In this document: in pieces, positions 38,802 to 57,261 of the stretch
Position numbering within the stretch: position 1 is the first letter of the stretch
Layout of the letters: the number at the start of each line of letters is the position of its first letter
Source of the DNA: Natronosalvus rutilus
GTDB lineage: Archaea; Halobacteriota; Halobacteria; Halobacteriales; Natrialbaceae
Length of the DNA stretch: 64,000 nt
Direction: 5' to 3'
Assembly: GCF_024204665.1 (NCBI RefSeq)
Contig: NZ_CP100355.1
Coordinates: forward strand, 2,027,451 to 2,091,450
Made by a program: the position numbers and the translations under genes
The notes under the pieces: generated by a model
Told to the model about the DNA's origin: nothing
Database searches by the model: none
Seen by the model: only the letters and a program-made list of their open reading frames with translations

Positions 38802-39869
38802 TCAGGGCGTCGGGACCCAGACCGTCGTCGGGAAGATGCCGAGGAAGAACGCCACGGCGATCAGAATCGTCCCAAAGACGATGGCCGCCGCGGGCGGGTC
38901 CCAGTGGGTATCGCCATGGGCGTAGAACACCCGCTGGAAGGCTTCCCCGAACAGCGCACAGACGATCCCGAAGATAGCGGCGACGATCAGGGCGACCTCG
39001 TTGCTGGTCCCCGCGAGAACCGCGTCGCCGCTCGCGACGACCGCGAGCGCGGCCGTCGAGGACGGGAGCGTGATGTGGTGTGTGACCGGAATCTTCTCGA
39101 CGCCGCAGTTGAGGAAGACGAGGGAGGCAGCGCTGATACCGAACGCCAGGAACGGACTCTCGGTGACGAGTGCCGTGTACCCGCCCAGGAGGCCGCCAGC
39201 CAGGCCGATCATGGCGACGTGGTCCCACTTGTACTGGTGGGGGAGCCACGGTTCGACGGCGAGACGCGAACTCTGGGCCGCTGCCTCCGTCTCTGCTCCC
39301 GCGTCCACCTCGCCGCCGTCGGTAATCGCTCGCGTCTCCTCGCGCTCAAATGGCGTCATGTCGAAGTAGCCCGTGCCCCGGACTTTCCCGATGATGCTGT
39401 AGCCCAGGATCAGCCGGTGAAACAGCGCCGAGAGGACGACCCCCATCGCGATTGGGTCCCAGGGCAACCCGAGCGTCCCCGAGGTCACCTGGAGGACGTA
39501 CCCGAGGACGCCGAAGGCCCCGCCCACGGCAAGGACGTCGGGTTTCGTCCCGAGGGCGTAGGCGATGTTCTTCGCCTCGTGGAAGTCGAAGGCAGTGTCG
39601 ATGTAGCCCCGGCGAGCGGCGTAGGCCGTCGCCGCAGCACCGCCGGCGAAGCTGATCGCCGGGGAGAACGGCGGGCCGAACGCGACATCGTTCGTGATCG
39701 CCCCGGCGTCTTGATTGACCAGCGTCGCTGCCTCACCCGCGATGACCATGAAGCCCGTAAAGATGAACGCCGGGAGTGCGCCGAGGGCTGCTCCGAACGC
39801 GCCGCCGCCGAACGCGGCGATGAGCATCTCGAGGTCGAGGAGGGCCTCCAGGAGCTCACCGAGGACCAT
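38802..39869 (-). CDS. Multi-pass membrane protein of the glycerol operon, candidate facilitator
   Basis: A 355-residue membrane protein with about eight hydrophobic helices and one long hydrophilic loop near residues 165-215 ('FEREETRAITDGGEVDAGAE'). Two parts show similar wording, 'LPWDPIAMGVVLSALFHRLI' and 'THWDPPAAAIVFGTILIAVA', which hints at an internal duplication. It is not a MIP-type aquaglyceroporin: no NPA motifs were found. It begins 2 bases after glpK stops, so it is cotranscribed with glycerol kinase. In other haloarchaea an unusual membrane protein beside glpK has been proposed as the glycerol facilitator. The transport role here is inferred from context alone. Confidence 0.72.
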   Translation of the reverse strand: MVLGELLEALLDLEMLIAAFGGGAFGAALGALPAFIFTGFMVIAGEAATLVNQDAGAITNDVAFGPPFSPAISFAGGAAATAYAARRGYIDTAFDFHEAKNIAYALGTKPDVLAVGGAFGVLGYVLQVTSGTLGLPWDPIAMGVVLSALFHRLILGYSIIGKVRGTGYFDMTPFEREETRAITDGGEVDAGAETEAAAQSSRLAVEPWLPHQYKWDHVAMIGLAGGLLGGYTALVTESPFLAFGISAASLVFLNCGVEKIPVTHHITLPSSTAALAVVASGDAVLAGTSNEVALIVAAIFGIVCALFGEAFQRVFYAHGDTHWDPPAAAIVFGTILIAVAFFLGIFPTTVWVPTP

Positions 39870-39871
39870 GG

Positions 39872-41410
39872 TCAGTCGCCTCCGTCAGTGGCCCAGCCGA
39901 GCGAGCGCTCGACGGCGTCACTCCAGCGACTGTACATGCGATCGGCTTTCTCCGGATCCATCTCGGGAGTGAACTCGCGGTCGACCTGCCAGTTGTCGCG
40001 CAGTCCCTCGACGTCGCCCCAGTACCCGACCGCCAGGCCGGCCGCATAGGCCGACCCCAGGGCCGTCGTCTCGTCGACGACGGGACGGGAGATCTCCGAG
40101 CCGATGATGTCCGACTGGAGCTGGCAGAGGTAGTTGTTCTTGACCGCGCCGCCGTCGACCTTGAGATCCTGCATCTCGATGCCCGAGTCGGCTTCCATCG
40201 CCTCGGCGACGTCTCGCGTCTGGTAGGCGATGGACTCGAGGGTCGCGCGGACGACGTGTTCCTTCCGGGTACCGCGGGTCATCCCGACGATGGTGCCGCG
40301 GGCGCGCTGGTCCCAGTGCGGGGCGCCCAGCCCCGTGAACGCGGGGACGAAGTAGACGCCGTCGGTCGAATCGACGCTCCTGGCCAGTTCCGCCGTCTCG
40401 GCCGGATCGTCGATCAACGTCATATCCTCGAGCCACTCGATCGCCGCGCCGGTGATGAATATGGCGCCCTCCAGAGCGTACTGGACGGGTTCGCCCGAGC
40501 GCTGGAAGCCAATTGTGGTGAGCAGGCCGTGTTCGGACTCGACGGCTTCCTCGCCGGTGTTCATGAGGAAGAACGAGCCTGTCCCGTAGGTGTTCTTGGC
40601 CTCGCCGGCGTCGAAACAGGTCTGGCCGAACAGCGCCGCCTGCTGGTCGCCGAGCGCGCCCGCGACCGGGATCTCGGCCTCGAGGAAGCCGTCCGGGTCG
40701 GTCGTTCCGTAGGTGTCCTCGTCGCTCGAGGGGCGAACTTCCGGGAGCATCTCCCGGGACACGTCGAACTCCTCGAGCAACTCGTCGTCCCACTCGAGGT
40801 CGTGGATGTTGTAGAGCATCGTCCGCGAAGCGTTCGTTACCTCGGTGATGTGGTTGCCCGTGAGGTTGTAGATCAGCCAGGTGTCGATGGTCCCGAAGAG
40901 GACCTCGCCCTCGGCCGCGCGGTCCTGGATGTCCGATGGCCGGGTACGCTCCATCTTGATCGGGTCGGCGTTCTCGAGGAGCCACTCGGCTTTCGTCGCC
41001 GAGAAGTAGGCGTCGGCCTCGAGGCCGGTCTTTTCACGGATCGTGTCGACCATGCCGTCTTCCTCGAGTTGCTCGACGCGACTGGTCGTCCGGCGGTCCT
41101 GCCAGACGAGCGCGTTGTGCACCGGTTTTCCGGATTCCGCGTCCCAGAGCAGCGTCGTCTCGCGCTGATTGGTGACGCCGATGGCCTCGAGCTGGTCCGG
41201 GCTGATCCCGGCCTGGCCGAGTGCGCTCGTGATCACCGATTTGGTGTTCTCCCAGATCTCCATCGGGTCGTGTTCGACCCAGCCGGGTTCCGGGTAGATC
41301 TGTTCGTGTTTCTCGTACGCGTTGGCGACGACCTGACCGCTGTGGTCGAACACCATGAATCGCGTGCCGGTCGTACCCTGGTCTACTGCGCCGACGTATG
41401 TGTCTGTCAT
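39872..41410 (-). CDS. glpK: Glycerol kinase
   Basis: A 512-residue FGGY-family kinase that makes sn-glycerol 3-phosphate from glycerol and ATP. The N-terminal phosphate loop is 'YVGAVDQGTTGTRFMVFDHS'. 'GVTNQRETTLLWD' and 'NALVWQDRRT' are FGGY segments. 'TYGTGSFFLMNTGEEAVESE' is the second ATP site and 'YFVPAFTGLGAPHWDQRARG' is the FGGY signature 2. The C-terminal tail 'WSDAVERSLGWATDGGD' is slightly longer than bacterial forms. It is the first gene of a leftward operon with the membrane protein. Divergent from glpA across a 327-bp A/T-rich region. It traps glycerol, a major carbon source in hypersaline water. Confidence 0.96.
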   Translation of the reverse strand: MTDTYVGAVDQGTTGTRFMVFDHSGQVVANAYEKHEQIYPEPGWVEHDPMEIWENTKSVITSALGQAGISPDQLEAIGVTNQRETTLLWDAESGKPVHNALVWQDRRTTSRVEQLEEDGMVDTIREKTGLEADAYFSATKAEWLLENADPIKMERTRPSDIQDRAAEGEVLFGTIDTWLIYNLTGNHITEVTNASRTMLYNIHDLEWDDELLEEFDVSREMLPEVRPSSDEDTYGTTDPDGFLEAEIPVAGALGDQQAALFGQTCFDAGEAKNTYGTGSFFLMNTGEEAVESEHGLLTTIGFQRSGEPVQYALEGAIFITGAAIEWLEDMTLIDDPAETAELARSVDSTDGVYFVPAFTGLGAPHWDQRARGTIVGMTRGTRKEHVVRATLESIAYQTRDVAEAMEADSGIEMQDLKVDGGAVKNNYLCQLQSDIIGSEISRPVVDETTALGSAYAAGLAVGYWGDVEGLRDNWQVDREFTPEMDPEKADRMYSRWSDAVERSLGWATDGGD

Positions 41411-41737: not shown

Positions 41738-43510
41738 ATGGCATACGATACGGAGGTACTCGTCGTCGGCGGCGGCTCCACCGGCTGTGGCATCGCCCGG
41801 GACCTGGCGATGCGCGGCCTCGAGGTGACGCTCGTCGAGCGGGGAAACCTCACACACGGGACGACCGGGCGGATGCACGGCCTGTTACACAGCGGGGGCC
41901 GCTACGCCGTGTCGGACCAGGCCAGCGCGAAGGAGTGTATCGAGGAAAACGAGGTCCTACGCGACATCGCCGGCCACTGCGTCGAGATGACCGGCGGACT
42001 GTTCGTCCAGCGCCCGGAGGATCCGGACGACTACTTCCAGGAAAAGCTGCGTGGGTGCAAGGCGTGTGACATTCCCGCGCGCGCCCTCTCGGGGCGGGAA
42101 GCCCGCGAGATCGAACCCTATCTCGCCAAAGACGTCGAGCGGGCGATTCAGGTGCCCGACGGCGCGATCGATCCCTTCAGACTCTGTGTGGCCAACGCAA
42201 TCGACGCCGAATCCCACGGGGCACGCGTCGAAACCCACGCCGAAGTGATCGACTTGCTTCGCGAGGGCGACGACGTCTACGGCGTCGAGGTCCGCCACGA
42301 CTCCGGCCCCGGAAAACGATCCCACCGATCGCCCGGCACCACTGAGGAGATCACGGCCGAATACGTCGTCAACGCGACCGGCGCGTGGGCCGGGCAGATC
42401 GGCGAGATGGCCGACCTCGAGGTCGCTGTCCGCCCCTCGAAGGGCGTCATGACCATCATGAACGTCCGCCAGGTCGACACGGTCATCAACCGCTGTCGGC
42501 CGAAGGGCGACGCCGACATCGTCGTGCCTCACGAGACAACTGCCATCCTCGGCACCACGGACGAGGAAGTCGACGATCCCGACGACTACCCCGAGGCTGG
42601 CTGGGAGGTCGACCTGATGATCGACACCCTCTCGGAACTGGTACCGATCCTATCGGAGGCCCGCACGATCCGCTCGTTCTGGGGGGTCCGCCCGCTGTAC
42701 GAACCACCGGGAACCGGGACGGTAGACCCCACGGACATCACCCGGGATTTCTTCCTGCTCGATCACGCCGAGCGCGACGGCGTCTCGGGAATCACCAGCA
42801 TCGTCGGCGGCAAGTTCACCACGTACCGGATGATGGCCGAGCAAATTTCTGATCACGTCTGTGAGAAACTCGGCCATCGGGCTACCTGCGAGACTGCGAG
42901 CGAACCGCTCCCAGGAAGCGAGAACCTCGAGACCCTCGAGGACGCGATGGACGACTTTGGCCTGCGTTCGCCGATCGCCCGACGGAGCAAACAGCGCCTC
43001 GGGAGTCGCTCGCAGGAGGTACTCGGAACCACTGATCCGAACCCGGTCGTCTGTACCTGCGAGGGCGTCACACGCGCCGAAATCCAGGACGCCATCGAGC
43101 AGTCCGGCTCCGACCTGAACGCCGTGCGAATCCGGACCCGGGCGTCGATGGGCAACTGCCAGGGCGGCTTCTGCTGTCACGTCATGGCCAACGAACTCCA
43201 CCCCGAGTACGACGAGCCGACGGCTCGAGCCGCCTACGACGAACTCTTCCAGGAGCGCTGGAAGGGCGAACGCCACGCGCTCTGGGGCGAACAGCTCTCC
43301 CAGGCGATGCTCACCTACGCGCTCCACGCGACGACGTTCAATGCCGACGGTGATCCGGCTCGAGTCGGCGGCGACGAGTCGGTCGACTTCGGCGCGTTCG
43401 ACGGTGGACGGCCGGACTCGGTTCGGGAAGCGACCGGGGGAATGGCGACCGACGGCGGTCCTCGAGACTCCCGACGGTTAGGCGAGGATCCGGACGGAGG
43501 TGATCGCTGA
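41738..43510 (+). CDS. glpA: Anaerobic glycerol-3-phosphate dehydrogenase subunit A
   Basis: A 590-residue flavoprotein that oxidises glycerol 3-phosphate to dihydroxyacetone phosphate. The FAD motif is '[18 protein letters not shown]' (8-25). '[20 protein letters not shown]' is the family's FAD contact loop, and '[13 protein letters not shown]' is the second motif. After a DAO domain, residues about 425-490 are a BFD-like [2Fe-2S] domain: '[17 protein letters not shown]' and 'NCQGGFC' provide the four cysteines. Start 41738 ([10 protein letters not shown]) is chosen over a TTG 12 bases earlier. First gene of a rightward operon; the next gene begins one base after its stop. It passes electrons through GlpB and GlpC to the membrane. 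Confidence 0.95.
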
Positions 43511-43511
43511 A

Positions 43512-44819
43512 ATGGCCATTACCGACGACGTGTTCGTCATCGGCGGCGGACTCGCCGGCGCGACGGCGGCGCTCGCCGCGGCCGAACGGGGCGTCCAGGT
43601 TCGCCTGCTCAGCTACAAGCAGAGCACGCTCCGCCACGCCAGCGGGCTGATCGACGTGCTCGGGTACGCGCCCGACGGCCAGGGGCCGCTCGCCGACCCC
43701 TTCGACGCGCTCGAGTCGCTCCCGGTGGGCCACCCCTACGAGCGCGTGGGCGGCGATTCGGTTCGCGAGGCACTGCTCTTCTTCGACGCGATCGCAGGGG
43801 ACACCTACGCGGGCGAGCACACGGACGCCAACGCGCTCGTCCCTACCTCGAGCGGCGCGATCAAGCCCACGGCCCGCTACCCCGCCGGCGTCGCGCCCGG
43901 GGTCGCGAGCGATCCCAGCGACGCGCTGCTCGTCGGCTTCGAAACCCTCCCCGAGTTCGACGCCCCGCTCGCCGCGGCCCACCTGGAGGACACCGGCGCT
44001 CCGTTCGAGGCCCGCGGCGTCACCCTCTCGTTCCCGGGCATCCGGCGCGACGACGCGAAGGTGACCCGGTACGCGCACCTGCTCGACCGCGACGAGGCCG
44101 TCGACATCGGCCGCGGCGAGACCTTCGCACGGGCCGCGTTGGCCGCCATTGTCCGCGACCAGCTCGAGGGCGAGTCCCGGGTGGGGTTCCCGCCGATCCT
44201 CGGGGACGACAATCACGCGACCGTCCGCCGTGACCTCGAGGAGCGCCTCGGCGTCGACGTCTTCGAAGTACCTTCGGGGCCGCCAAGCCTGCCCGGAATG
44301 CGCCTCGAGGACCGCCTGTACGACGCGCTCGAGGACGCTGGCGTTCGCGTCACGACGGGCGTCCCGGTCGTCGACTACGAGGGGGTGGAAAGCGGACGCA
44401 GCGGCTCGAATTCGAGACGAATCGAACACGTCCTCGTTGATCGCAAGGGCCAGGACGTTCCCTACCGCGCCGACGAGTACGTCCTCGCCACCGGCGGCCT
44501 CGTCGGCAAGGGCGTTCGATCCGACCGCGAGCGGGTCTTCGAACCCATCTTCGACTGTCACGTCGAGGCGTCGCCGGACCGCTACGACTGGTTCGACGGC
44601 GACGCCTTCGGCGACCACCCGTTCGCTCGCTTCGGCGTGACCGTCGACCGCGAGTTGCGCCCGCTCGACGCCGAGGGCGACCTCGAGTTCGCGAACCTGC
44701 GAGCGGCGGGTGCCGTCCTCTCGGGGTACGACTTCGCCGCCGAGAAGTCCGGCAGTGGCGTCTCGCTCGCCACTGGATTCGTCGCGGGCGACCGGGCCGG
44801 ATCGGAGGTTCGCGGATGA
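43512..44819 (+). CDS. glpB: Anaerobic glycerol-3-phosphate dehydrogenase subunit B
   Basis: A 435-residue GlpB flavoprotein. 'DDVFVIGGGLAGATAALAAA' is the FAD-binding start. 'LRHASGLIDVLGY' and 'FPPILGDDNHATVRRDLEE' in part follow the family pattern, and 'EYVLATGGLVGKGV' is the late FAD strand. GlpB sits between the catalytic GlpA dimer and the membrane-associated GlpC. The ATG at 43512 follows the glpA stop by one base (TGAAATG), so translation is coupled. Its own stop overlaps a downstream ATG by four bases (44816-44819). Confidence 0.92.
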   Translation: MAITDDVFVIGGGLAGATAALAAAERGVQVRLLSYKQSTLRHASGLIDVLGYAPDGQGPLADPFDALESLPVGHPYERVGGDSVREALLFFDAIAGDTYAGEHTDANALVPTSSGAIKPTARYPAGVAPGVASDPSDALLVGFETLPEFDAPLAAAHLEDTGAPFEARGVTLSFPGIRRDDAKVTRYAHLLDRDEAVDIGRGETFARAALAAIVRDQLEGESRVGFPPILGDDNHATVRRDLEERLGVDVFEVPSGPPSLPGMRLEDRLYDALEDAGVRVTTGVPVVDYEGVESGRSGSNSRRIEHVLVDRKGQDVPYRADEYVLATGGLVGKGVRSDRERVFEPIFDCHVEASPDRYDWFDGDAFGDHPFARFGVTVDRELRPLDAEGDLEFANLRAAGAVLSGYDFAAEKSGSGVSLATGFVAGDRAGSEVRG

Positions 44820-45031
44820 GCCGATCGGTTCGTTCGCGTGCTGGCCCGGACGCGCTGTACGGACCGTACGCGGCCTCGAGTGACCCCTCGAGCAGTGCGT
44901 GCAAGCAGTGGCGGCCGGATCGACGGTCGACCGAGACTTACAGTAGAAACGAGTTTCAGAGCCAGGCCCAGAGCCACAGTCAGATTCAGAGACGGATCCA
45001 ATTTCAAATCAACATGACGGTGATTCTATGA
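44816..45031 (+). CDS. Small ORF joining glpB and glpC by ATGA overlaps
   Basis: A 71-residue open frame that starts within the glpB stop (ATGA at 44816) and stops within the glpC start (ATGA at 45028). Exact four-base overlaps on both sides are what translational coupling needs. The protein has no known domain. Residues 48-59 are a Gln/Ser repeat from six tandem hexamers in the DNA (44957-44992). Composition (Arg/Ser/Gln, little acid) is unlike haloarchaeal proteins, which argues that it may serve only to carry ribosomes to glpC, or may not be a functional protein. Confidence 0.4.
   Translation: MSRSVRSRAGPDALYGPYAASSDPSSSACKQWRPDRRSTETYSRNEFQSQAQSHSQIQRRIQFQINMTVIL
44957..44992. repeat. 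Six imperfect CAGnnn hexamers between glpB and glpC
   Basis: Units are cagagc, caggcc, cagagc, cacagt, cagatt and cagaga. They keep the small ORF in frame and might have expanded by slippage. Confidence 0.7.
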
Positions 45032-46578
45032 GCGACGCGGAACGACCGACCGACGACCACGTCCCGGGCGACGACGAGTTCGACCCCATCGAGGTCTTTC
45101 CGGAGGCCGACGAGATGGACCTCAGGCCGGGGGCGGACAACTGCTACAAGTGCTCGACCTGCGACACCAACTGCCCGGTCGCGGAGGTCGACGACGAGTT
45201 CCCCGGGCCGAAGTTCCAGGGACCGGAGCAGTGGCGGCTGAAGCGCCAATCCGACCAGGATGTCGACGCCTCGATCATGAAATGCTCGAACTGCATGCGC
45301 TGTGACCACGCCTGCCCCTCGGAAGTGCCGCTCTCCCAGATGCACAACAGCGCTCGCGGGGAGTACGTCGAGGAGCGGATGAGCAAGCGTTCGCTCGAGT
45401 ACTGGCGAAACCGGCTGCTCTCGAACTACCGGCTGATGGCGCACCTCGGGAGCAAGGTCCCCCGGTTGACGAACTTTGTGATGGGGCTCACGCTCACCAG
45501 CGTGTTCAACGAGAAGGTTCTCGGCATCGCGGGCGAACGCGAGTTCCCCGAGTTCGCCACCGAGACCTTCCGGGAGTGGTGGCGAGCACGGGGTGGCCAC
45601 GAGGTCTCGAGAGAGCGCGCCGAGGCGGCCCGCGATCGTCGCGGTGAGTCCGGTGCTGATAAGAAAATCGCCTACTTCCACGGCTGCTACTCGAACTACA
45701 ACACGCCCGAGGTCGGCAAGGCCCTCGTGCGGGTGTACGAACACTTCGGCTACGAAGTAGTGGTGCCAGAGCAGCGCTGTTCGGGGACGCCGATGTTCGC
45801 GAACGGCATGCTCGACGACGCCCGCCGGGCCGCCGACACCAACGTCCCTGAACTCGCGGCCGCCATCGAAGACGGCGCCGACGTGATCGCCTCCTGCACC
45901 TCGTGTTCGATGTCGCTTCGCCAGGAGTACCCCGAACTGTTCGACATCGACGGCGTCGACGACGTCTCGAGCAACACCTGGGAGGGCCTCGAGTACCTCC
46001 GCGTCCACGAGGATCTCGAGGGCGAACTCGCAGGGACGCGTGCCGACGTGCCGAACCTGGCCTACCACACTCCCTGTCACGCCCGCAATCAGGGACTGGA
46101 CGGACAGGCCATCGAGGTGCTGACGACCATCGACGGCGTCGAGGCCCAGGACGTGGGCGAGTCCTGTTCTGGAATTTCGGGCACCTACGGCTGGAAGGAA
46201 GAGCACTACGAGACCTCGATGCAGATCGGCGAGGAGATGTTCGAGCACATGGAACGCGCCGACGGCGACACCGGTCTCACCGAGTGTCCGACCTGCGCAA
46301 TGCAGATGGAACACGGGACGGGCTACGAGATCAAACACCCACTCGAGGTGCTCGAGGCGGCACTCGTTCCGGACTCTCCGGAAACCGCGCGTGCGACGAC
46401 GGATGGCGGCGTCGACGAGGTGGGCGAGGCGGGCCGTCGAGACGAGGTACGCGGATCGGATCGCGAAGGCGGAACGGACGAAGCGGACCGCGAAGACAGG
46501 ACGGACGAAGCGGACCACGAAGATAGGACGGGCAGACCGGACCGCGAAGGCCAGAACGAGCCGTCCGGAGCGAACTGA
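45028..46578 (+). CDS. glpC: Anaerobic glycerol-3-phosphate dehydrogenase subunit C
   Basis: A 516-residue iron-sulfur subunit. Two ferredoxin-like CxxCxxCxxxC sets are seen: C39, C42, C45, C49 and C86, C89, C92, C96. Two CCG (cysteine-rich) domains follow, 'FHGCYSNYNTPEVGKALVRV' with 'CSGTPMF' and 'YHTPCHARNQGLDGQAIEVL' with 'SCSGISGTYG'. 'ECPTCAMQMEHGTG' is the last cysteine motif. It links the GlpAB dimer to the membrane quinone pool. The C-terminal 65 residues are not part of the family: they are an acidic/basic tail with four 9-residue repeats encoded by 27-bp units. The stop overlaps the next ATG by one base (TGATG). Confidence 0.94.
   Translation: MSDAERPTDDHVPGDDEFDPIEVFPEADEMDLRPGADNCYKCSTCDTNCPVAEVDDEFPGPKFQGPEQWRLKRQSDQDVDASIMKCSNCMRCDHACPSEVPLSQMHNSARGEYVEERMSKRSLEYWRNRLLSNYRLMAHLGSKVPRLTNFVMGLTLTSVFNEKVLGIAGEREFPEFATETFREWWRARGGHEVSRERAEAARDRRGESGADKKIAYFHGCYSNYNTPEVGKALVRVYEHFGYEVVVPEQRCSGTPMFANGMLDDARRAADTNVPELAAAIEDGADVIASCTSCSMSLRQEYPELFDIDGVDDVSSNTWEGLEYLRVHEDLEGELAGTRADVPNLAYHTPCHARNQGLDGQAIEVLTTIDGVEAQDVGESCSGISGTYGWKEEHYETSMQIGEEMFEHMERADGDTGLTECPTCAMQMEHGTGYEIKHPLEVLEAALVPDSPETARATTDGGVDEVGEAGRRDEVRGSDREGGTDEADREDRTDEADHEDRTGRPDREGQNEPSGAN
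46459..46566. repeat. Four 27-bp in-frame repeats at the end of glpC
   Basis: Units 46459-46485, 46486-46512, 46513-46539 and 46540-46566 encode DREGGTDEA, DREDRTDEA, DHEDRTGRP and DREGQNEPS. They form the charged tail of GlpC. Confidence 0.85.
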
Positions 46579-47756
46579 TGGACCTCGCGGAACGAATCGC
46601 CCGTCGGCGAACCGCCCAGCCGCATTCGGGGTTCGTCCTCGACCGGGAGGTGCTGAGCCCTACTGTCCACCGCAGTGAGCCCGTCGGCCGCGGTTCGACC
46701 CTCGAGGCGCTCCTCGACGCCGTCGAACCCGCTTTCAGCAACTCTCTGCCGGAACCGTTCGCGGTCGTCGGGCCCGCCGGATCCGGAACGTCGGCCGTGA
46801 TCACCGCGCTCTTCGCCGCGCTGACGGCGGAGCTGGGCGACTCGACTCGAGCGATCGGGACGACGACGCGCGCCGGCAGCGACCGGCGGGCGATCCGGTT
46901 CGTCTACGTCGACGCCCGCCGAACGACCAGCGCGTTCGCCTTCTATCGGGCCGTTCTCTCGTCGCTCTCGACGGATTCCGTTCCGACCAGCGGCGTCGGG
47001 ACGGACGACCTCCACGATCGTCTCGCCGCGCGACTCGCCCGGCCCGACCGCCGGGCGGTGATCGCCGTCGACCACCACGACGAACCGGAAACGATTGACG
47101 TGGCGAGGGTTCGGGAGTTACTCGAGGCGGTCGACGAGAGCACGACGGTCATCCCGATCGGGCGGCGAGCGCCCACCGGGTGGGACGGGTCCGTCGTCGA
47201 GGTCCCGGCCTACCGCCAGCACGAACTCGTCGACGTGGTGACCGAGCGAACCGCCGTGGGACTGGCCGCCGGCACGCTCGACCACCAGGCAGTCCGGTCG
47301 CTGGCGGAGTGGGCCGACGGCAACGCTCACGACGCGCTGGCGGCGGTGTTCGGCGCTGCGTACCTGGCGACGGAGGCGGGCGCCGAAACGATCGACGACC
47401 GCCACCTCGAGGCCGCGAAGGCGGACGTGCCGGGTGGCGGCGTCCACGTCGACCGGGCACTGGCCCTGCCGGAATCGCGCCAGCGCGTACTCGTCGCGCT
47501 GATCCAGGTTTGCGATGACGAGACCGACCGTCGATCGATTCGTACCCTTTCGGACGACATCGCCCGTTCGTCGTCACTGACGAGCGGGACCGTCAAGCGA
47601 TTTCTGTACGAACTGGCCGACAGAGGACTACTCGAGCGGGTGTCGATCAACGAGGCGGTCGGGAGCGAAGGAGGGAGTGGGGGTCGCCGCCCGAGCACGC
47701 TCGAGCCGCGATTCCCGACGATTGCGTTCCAGGCGCTGACGACGGCTCAGGAGTAA
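46578..47756 (+). CDS. Degenerate Orc1/Cdc6-like AAA+ protein coupled to glpC
   Basis: A 392-residue protein with the Orc1/Cdc6 layout: a short N-terminal segment ('VLSPTVHRSEPVGRGSTLEA'), a AAA+ domain and a C-terminal winged helix ('VLVALIQVCDDETDRRSIRT', 'LTSGTVKRFLYELADRGLLE'). The Walker A is 'GPAGSGTS' (65-72), so the catalytic Lys is replaced by Thr71. Walker B reads 'AVIAVDHHDE', with His where a second acid is usual. It is therefore unlikely to be an active initiator ATPase. It starts on the last base of the glpC stop (TGATG), placing it in the glycerol operon. It may instead be a DNA-binding regulator. There is no origin-like A/T-rich repeat region around it. Confidence 0.75.
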   Translation: MDLAERIARRRTAQPHSGFVLDREVLSPTVHRSEPVGRGSTLEALLDAVEPAFSNSLPEPFAVVGPAGSGTSAVITALFAALTAELGDSTRAIGTTTRAGSDRRAIRFVYVDARRTTSAFAFYRAVLSSLSTDSVPTSGVGTDDLHDRLAARLARPDRRAVIAVDHHDEPETIDVARVRELLEAVDESTTVIPIGRRAPTGWDGSVVEVPAYRQHELVDVVTERTAVGLAAGTLDHQAVRSLAEWADGNAHDALAAVFGAAYLATEAGAETIDDRHLEAAKADVPGGGVHVDRALALPESRQRVLVALIQVCDDETDRRSIRTLSDDIARSSSLTSGTVKRFLYELADRGLLERVSINEAVGSEGGSGGRRPSTLEPRFPTIAFQALTTAQE

Positions 47757-57041: not shown

Positions 57042-57261
57042 AAGGTTGCGAACAATGCTTACAATTTCCAACTCGAAACCGAATGAACTTCTCGAACGGT
57101 GGCCGACTCGGTCGGACGGGCAGGACCGTCCGAATCTCCTCCGAATCTCCGTACGGTGTGGTGTTTGTGAGTTCATAAGCGACCTTCATCGGTGGGTAAA
57201 TGCCTCCCGCTCCAATGAAGTCCCGAAGTGACTATACCGCTCGAGTGAGAGTCTCTCGCGT

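Follow-up and report, generated by a model that had tools for sequence, protein, structure and literature searches.

In bacteria, the glp genes are controlled by GlpR, a protein of the DeoR family, in response to glycerol-3-phosphate. Among archaea, Orc1-2 of Saccharolobus islandicus is an Orc1 protein that is not an initiator and regulates the DNA damage response (PMC9738581). In that study, mutation of its Walker A motif strongly reduced the DNA complexes, and a hydrolysis mutant was lethal (PMC9738581). Glycerol catabolism is a main carbon route of haloarchaea, and a 2025 study describes its switching as not fully understood (PMC12853182). No paper linking an Orc1-type protein to glycerol genes was found among the open-licence literature, and the words "glycerol" and "Walker" are both absent from Wu et al 2012 (PMC3528665). 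In the present study, we analysed the last gene of the glpABC operon of Natronosalvus rutilus within a window of 64,000 nucleotides (the whole stretch of DNA that was analysed), together with its relatives. We propose, with a probability of about 0.82, that the protein is an Orc1/Cdc6-derived transcription regulator of glycerol genes acting through a dyad between glpK and glpA. This proposal is based on the fold, the linkage to glp genes, the dyad, the joint presence of dyad and gene across genomes, the ugp and Haloferax loci, and the signs of selection. It offers a candidate regulator and a predicted operator at named bases (Table 1).

Table 1. Positions of the genes, protein motifs and predicted operators in the window
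Feature	Positions	Strand	Basis and remarks
Orc1/Cdc6-like AAA+ winged-helix protein, proposed glycerol regulator	46578-47756	+	392 aa; ORF, Pfam/NCBIfam, AlphaFold2
Degenerate Walker A, residues 65-72, GPAGSGTS	46770-46793	+	Thr71 for Lys; sequence, alignment
Walker B region, residues 164-171, VDHHDEPE	47067-47090	+	Asp165 kept; His166 replaces catalytic Glu
C-terminal winged-helix domain, residues 291-392	47448-47753	+	AlphaFold2; conservation
glpA, anaerobic glycerol-3-phosphate dehydrogenase subunit A	41738-43510	+	NCBIfam equivalog; ATG 41738 preferred to TTG 41726
glpB	43500-44819	+	NCBIfam equivalog
glpC	45028-46578	+	NCBIfam equivalog; stop shares one base with regulator start
glpK, glycerol kinase	39872-41410	-	Divergent from glpABC
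"glpF" slot gene adjoining glpK	38802-39869	-	355 aa; kept in cluster over the order
Predicted operator 1, TTTAC-N19-ATAAA	41448-41476		Perfect; 37 bp before glpK start codon
Predicted operator 2, GTTAC-N19-ATAAA	41675-41703		One mismatch; 34 bp before glpA ATG 41738

Fold, ATPase site and genomic neighbourhood

The first-pass annotation, made from the sequence alone, had read in this protein the domain order of Orc1/Cdc6. This order (AAA+, Cdc6-type lid, winged helix) was borne out by Pfam, by TIGR02928 and by the AlphaFold2 model. Pfam gave AAA_16 at 4.8e-12, with Cdc6_lid under its own cut-off, and the best NCBIfam match was TIGR02928 orc1/cdc6 (78.5 bits, 4.3e-22; cut-off 181.3). The other NCBIfam ORC1 models also scored far under their cut-offs, and every curated Orc1 cut-off was missed. 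A PDB search by sequence alone was weak (best 2qby_A, E 1.7e-4). The AlphaFold2 model, with 40 aligned sequences as input, had a mean pLDDT of 91.2 and a pTM of 0.88, and archaeal Orc1/Cdc6 was ranked first for it by both Foldseek (2qby_A, E 8.9e-18) and VIA-align (2v1u_A, Z 23.2 over 331 residues; 2qby_A, Z 22.6). Hence, the modelled structure is Orc1-like, as the first reading of the gene had assumed. The most conserved stretch is helix 336-348 of the winged-helix domain (mean majority frequency 0.95). In five orthologues (G026, G048, G055, G084 and G091) from the clade with Thr at residue 71 (Thr clade), the match is split in two around residue 204 with no break in the reading frame, which points to in-frame insertions separating the AAA+ core from the lid.

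The P-loop without its lysine was found as first described, with Thr at residue 71, and the Walker B motif, which had been called degenerate, reads AVDHHDE. In AAA+ proteins, the residue after the Walker B Asp is canonically Glu. All 166 aligned sequences of this family carry Asp-His at these positions, so that ATP hydrolysis is probably absent or weak throughout. At residue 71 the same alignment has Thr in 93 and Lys in 73 sequences, these totals and the 166 being redundant counts from two partly overlapping source sets; Thr is fixed in all 93 aligned sequences of the Thr clade. A maximum-likelihood protein tree was built from the three true Orc1 proteins of this genome and 110 family sequences, to which a filter at 90% identity was applied except in four cases. 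In this tree a single change accounts for the Thr group (support 91), whose sister is a Lys-type protein of Halopiger goleimassiliensis encoded directly after glpC (L138; support 99). The tree is a quick one without bootstraps, and the regulator stands far from the other Orc1 proteins of the genome, with a long-branch warning at this outgroup and an unsure root.

The first-pass annotation had staked its reading on the absence of an intact Walker A from this locus in related genomes, and here it must be corrected, since both L138 (GPQGAGKS) and L056 (GPSGSGKT) keep the lysine directly after glpC. The degenerate Walker A as the ancestral state of the locus was rejected on account of these relatives and of the tree. 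The change from Lys to Thr is a single event in one Natrialbaceae clade. Therefore, recruitment to the glp genes came first and loss of the lysine later. From the sequences compared, Walker B had already changed when the gene joined the glp genes, and the loss of the lysine is a last step confined to this clade. It is plausible that the ancestor of the family was a working initiator.

Loss of so central an ATP-binding residue might also mean that the Lys-less copy is a pseudogene in decay, left over from a regulator that was useful in the past. We regard this as very improbable, because pairwise dN/dS is 0.07-0.21 in 7 pairs, the P-loop columns are 92% conserved with Thr fixed, and helix 336-348 is conserved at 95%. 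Furthermore, no internal stop was seen among the family matches listed in the Natrialbaceae and order searches, and the predicted operators are kept at 46 of 46 loci.

The gene was confirmed to start on the final base of the glpC stop codon (TGA at 46576-46578, ATG from that A). Among the 30 closest loci, stop and start overlap by 1 base in 15 and by 4 bases in 1, and are separated by 0-28 bases in 7, the glpC stop being left unplaced by the script in the other 7. The C-terminal tail of GlpC (46400-46575) is charged, of low complexity and repeat-like (EADREDRTDEADHEDRTGRPDREG), and the GlpC alignment of most relatives reaches only about residue 450-480. On the other side of the cluster, a Pfam search at 1e-5 matched no family to the gene in the "glpF" slot. 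A membrane protein is described beside glpK in Haloquadratum (PMC5496347).

A homologue (1e-15) was found in 84 of 101 Natrialbaceae genomes and GlpC in 91; all 84 have GlpC, and all 10 genomes without GlpC also have no homologue. Over the order, 198 of 293 genomes have the homologue, and in a sample of the phylum the 19 positive genomes (of 196) all come from the same order. The family is limited to this order in the samples searched. A search of a plasmid collection returned 4 records and was of little use. In the best 80 of 219 relatives, to which all neighbourhood counts refer, at least one glp gene lies in the examined flank of 77 loci, at varying positions. All 47 Thr-type loci have the gene directly after glpC. 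The 33 Lys-type loci have it after glpC (4), after the glpF slot (19), after glpK (2), between glpA and glpK (3) or convergent with glpC (2); no glp gene was seen at the remaining 3, one of them at a contig edge. Thus, the expectation that the same paralogue always follows glpC is true for the Thr clade and a few others and fails elsewhere, and the more general idea of an Orc1-type paralogue recruited to glycerol metabolism is borne out by the order-wide linkage. A gene that keeps moving without leaving a given pathway is more probably a working partner of that pathway than a passenger. That the protein is still a replication initiator or a plasmid-type Orc, placed in the operon by chance, could be argued from its Orc1 fold and its similarity to TIGR02928. 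This is hardly credible for a protein that misses all curated Orc1 cut-offs, has neither the Walker A Lys nor the Walker B Glu, is kept with glp genes over the order, and is distant in the tree from the Orc1 proteins of its own genome.

Predicted operators and their co-occurrence with the gene

Between the divergent glpK and glpA genes lies a 29-bp dyad, TTTAY-N19-RTAAA. The 64-kb window has 3 dyad matches against 0.23 expected; the third, with one mismatch (57172-57200), is away from glp genes and may be due to chance. Over the 4.31-Mb genome, the perfect dyad occurs at 4 places only and the reversed control pattern at 1. As to a genome-wide regulon, the 3 other perfect dyads (L183, L185 and L186) have no clear adjoining glycerol gene and may be chance matches. 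The relaxed pattern was found at 12 places, glpK, glpA and ugpB among them, against 7 for the control.

The glpK-side dyad is present at 46 of 46 Thr-clade loci, and the glpA-side copy, mostly with G as its first base, at 43 of 46. In the Lys clade, one or more perfect N19 copies occur at 36 of 48 loci, and N20 occurs in some. A TATA-like hexamer precedes the glpK-side dyad at 41 of 46 Thr-clade loci and at 24 of the 38 Lys-clade loci that have this dyad. The spacing between the two is exactly 16 bp in 64 of these 65 cases (Thr clade 41/41, Lys clade 23/24).

We found that the dyad goes together with the gene. When the 420 bp before glpA were searched, perfect dyads (N19 or N20) turned up at 45 of 46 Thr-clade loci and at 23 of 25 and 22 of 32 loci in two Lys-clade sets. 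Where glpA is present and the gene absent (no homologue match at 1e-15), the same test gave 0 of 6 Natrialbaceae loci and 0 of 30 loci from the rest of the order, and one mismatch had to be allowed for a dyad at 1 of these 36. The 6 loci represent 6 of the 7 Natrialbaceae genomes with GlpC but no gene, the seventh (G088) ending at a contig edge, and the 30 are the best GlpA loci from 80 of 85 gene-less order genomes searched outside the Natrialbaceae sample, 40 of the 80 having GlpA. For the rows fitting one GlpA tree (built with FastTree), gene and dyad were both present in 91 and both absent in 36, with the gene alone in 13 and the dyad alone in 0; this table leaves out L176, the loci of the non-glp kind, and all rows in which GlpA or the upstream DNA was short. 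The 13 loci (of 104 with the gene) that have no perfect dyad near glpA show one mismatch (9), two (3) or three (1). Gene presence needs 16 changes on the GlpA tree, and among 11 supported independent pairs the dyad went with the gene in 8.6 on average and against it in 0.0 (median p 0.004). At the gene-less locus L182, the TATA-like box is kept and an intact dyad is absent. A candidate operator that is found together with the gene now lends support to the regulatory role suggested in the first-pass annotation. In one Natrialbaceae genome without the regulator, a Fic protein of 384 aa with a C-terminal HTH lies between the divergent glpK and glpA (L178:2498-3649).

Outside the glp cluster, the genome has a paralogue (C1:537360; 40% identity) that keeps the Walker A Lys and is the last gene of a ugp-type operon for glycerol-3-phosphate uptake (L174:6996-12536), with a glycerophosphodiesterase gene nearby. 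The UgpB-like binding protein of this operon has UgpB as its best NCBIfam match (1.9e-44, under cut-off), and the UgpC-type ATPase is over cut-off. The ugpB promoter of this genome carries GTTAC-N19-GTAAA, and a dyad with at most one mismatch (in one case with N20) stands before ugpB in 4 of 4 cases (this genome and three relatives), against 1 of 356 background tiles. At a paralogue that is not ugp-linked (L062), the N19/N20 dyad is absent. Two Haloferax species, H. marisrubri (L169) and H. sulfurifontis (L172), have no glp gene in the examined flank; there, a TATA-like box and a dyad with one mismatch stand before the regulator gene itself. This promoter is very similar to the one that serves glpK in H. 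prahovense, an arrangement that a deletion of glpK and its neighbour from between promoter and regulator could have produced (L169:9830-12681). At L169, an FBPase-like gene lies 3' of the regulator.

As the co-occurrence is correlative, the dyad might be bound by some other factor that was lost along with the gene, for example a TrmB-like protein or a DeoR-type GlpR of haloarchaea, and the Orc1-like protein would then be a passenger or a cofactor. The GlpR of Haloferax volcanii is known as a sugar regulator (PMC12853182). However, GlpR (NF041397) is over cut-off in 9 of the 36 genomes that lack gene and dyad alike and in only 2 of the 8 gene-bearing genomes tested, and none is over cut-off in the present genome. 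In addition, the dyad tracks the regulator family to three kinds of locus, namely glp, ugp and the regulator's own promoter in Haloferax. GlpR was therefore rejected as the owner of the dyad, and ownership by any other regulator is considered improbable.

Proposed regulation of glycerol genes

Rather than a single odd gene, we describe here a family of candidate regulators that derive from Orc1, extend over the order and have a predicted operator; the proposed role of the family comes from comparison of genomes. The protein would bind the predicted dyad in the divergent promoter region as a dimer. Its targets would be the glycerol kinase gene, the dehydrogenase genes glpABC and its own gene, which is the last of that operon. 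The glpK dyad starts 16 bp after the TATA-like box and would cover the transcription start, which favours repression. The common targets glp and ugp would point to glycerol-3-phosphate or glycerol as the signal. Repression relieved by one of these two compounds is thus judged somewhat likelier than activation.

Archaeal repressors usually sit downstream of the TATA box. The glpK dyad lies there at its fixed 16 bp, which speaks against an activator that recruits TBP/TFB to the dyad when glycerol or glycerol-3-phosphate is present. At glpA, the dyad stands some 35 bp ahead of the start codon, where it could border on the core promoter, and its position is less telling for the sign of regulation. 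Furthermore, Saccharolobus Orc1-2 activates DNA-repair genes (PMC9738581), and the mechanism activating glycerol metabolism was called "not fully understood" in 2025 (PMC12853182). Activation by the Orc1-like protein is accordingly a serious minority reading, and a glycerol-relieved repressor of glpK and glpA is still preferred.

With the Walker A Lys also gone in the Natrialbaceae clade, DNA binding there is probably independent of ATP, and nucleotide binding would have been lost in the Thr clade. As mutation of Walker A weakens DNA binding in Saccharolobus Orc1-2 (PMC9738581), a regulator of the Orc type without this lysine would have to switch in another way. A rather doubtful idea for such a switch is that the P-loop without lysine (GPxGxGTS) and the D-H-H-D-E stretch form an ATP-independent sensor for the phosphate of glycerol-3-phosphate, the ligand freeing the dimer from the glp operators. 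If this were true, the Lys-less regulator and the Lys-bearing ugp paralogue would represent both stages of the change in one genome. This pair, with the lysine kept and lost, lends itself to the question of how an AAA+ switch comes to dispense with ATP.

Comparison with known systems

If the proposal is right, the Orc1 fold is used here as an ordinary local metabolic regulator, and haloarchaeal genes named Orc1/Cdc6 should not be counted as initiators before Walker B is checked. The fold is common to the regulator and the archaeal Orc1/Cdc6 initiators (TIGR02928; 2v1u, 2qby) over nearly the whole length (Z 22-23), whereas the regulator has altered Walker motifs, a score far under the cut-off and glp neighbours. 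Bacterial GlpR does the same job as that proposed for the Orc1-type regulator with an unrelated protein fold. Haloarchaeal GlpR (NF041397), a winged-helix regulator of carbon metabolism, has weak local similarity to the DNA-binding part of the regulator (19.8 bits; cut-off 300), but it belongs to a different family and its presence does not follow the dyad. The nearest parallel is Saccharolobus islandicus Orc1-2, which has the same AAA+ and winged-helix Orc1 architecture and, like the role proposed here, serves as a transcription regulator and not as an initiator. According to PMC9738581, Orc1-2 regulates the stress response globally, depends on both the binding and the hydrolysis of ATP, and uses a short ANTTTC element. 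In contrast, the regulator of the glp cluster would be a local metabolic one with a 29-bp dyad, in a family without the catalytic Glu and a clade without the Walker A Lys.
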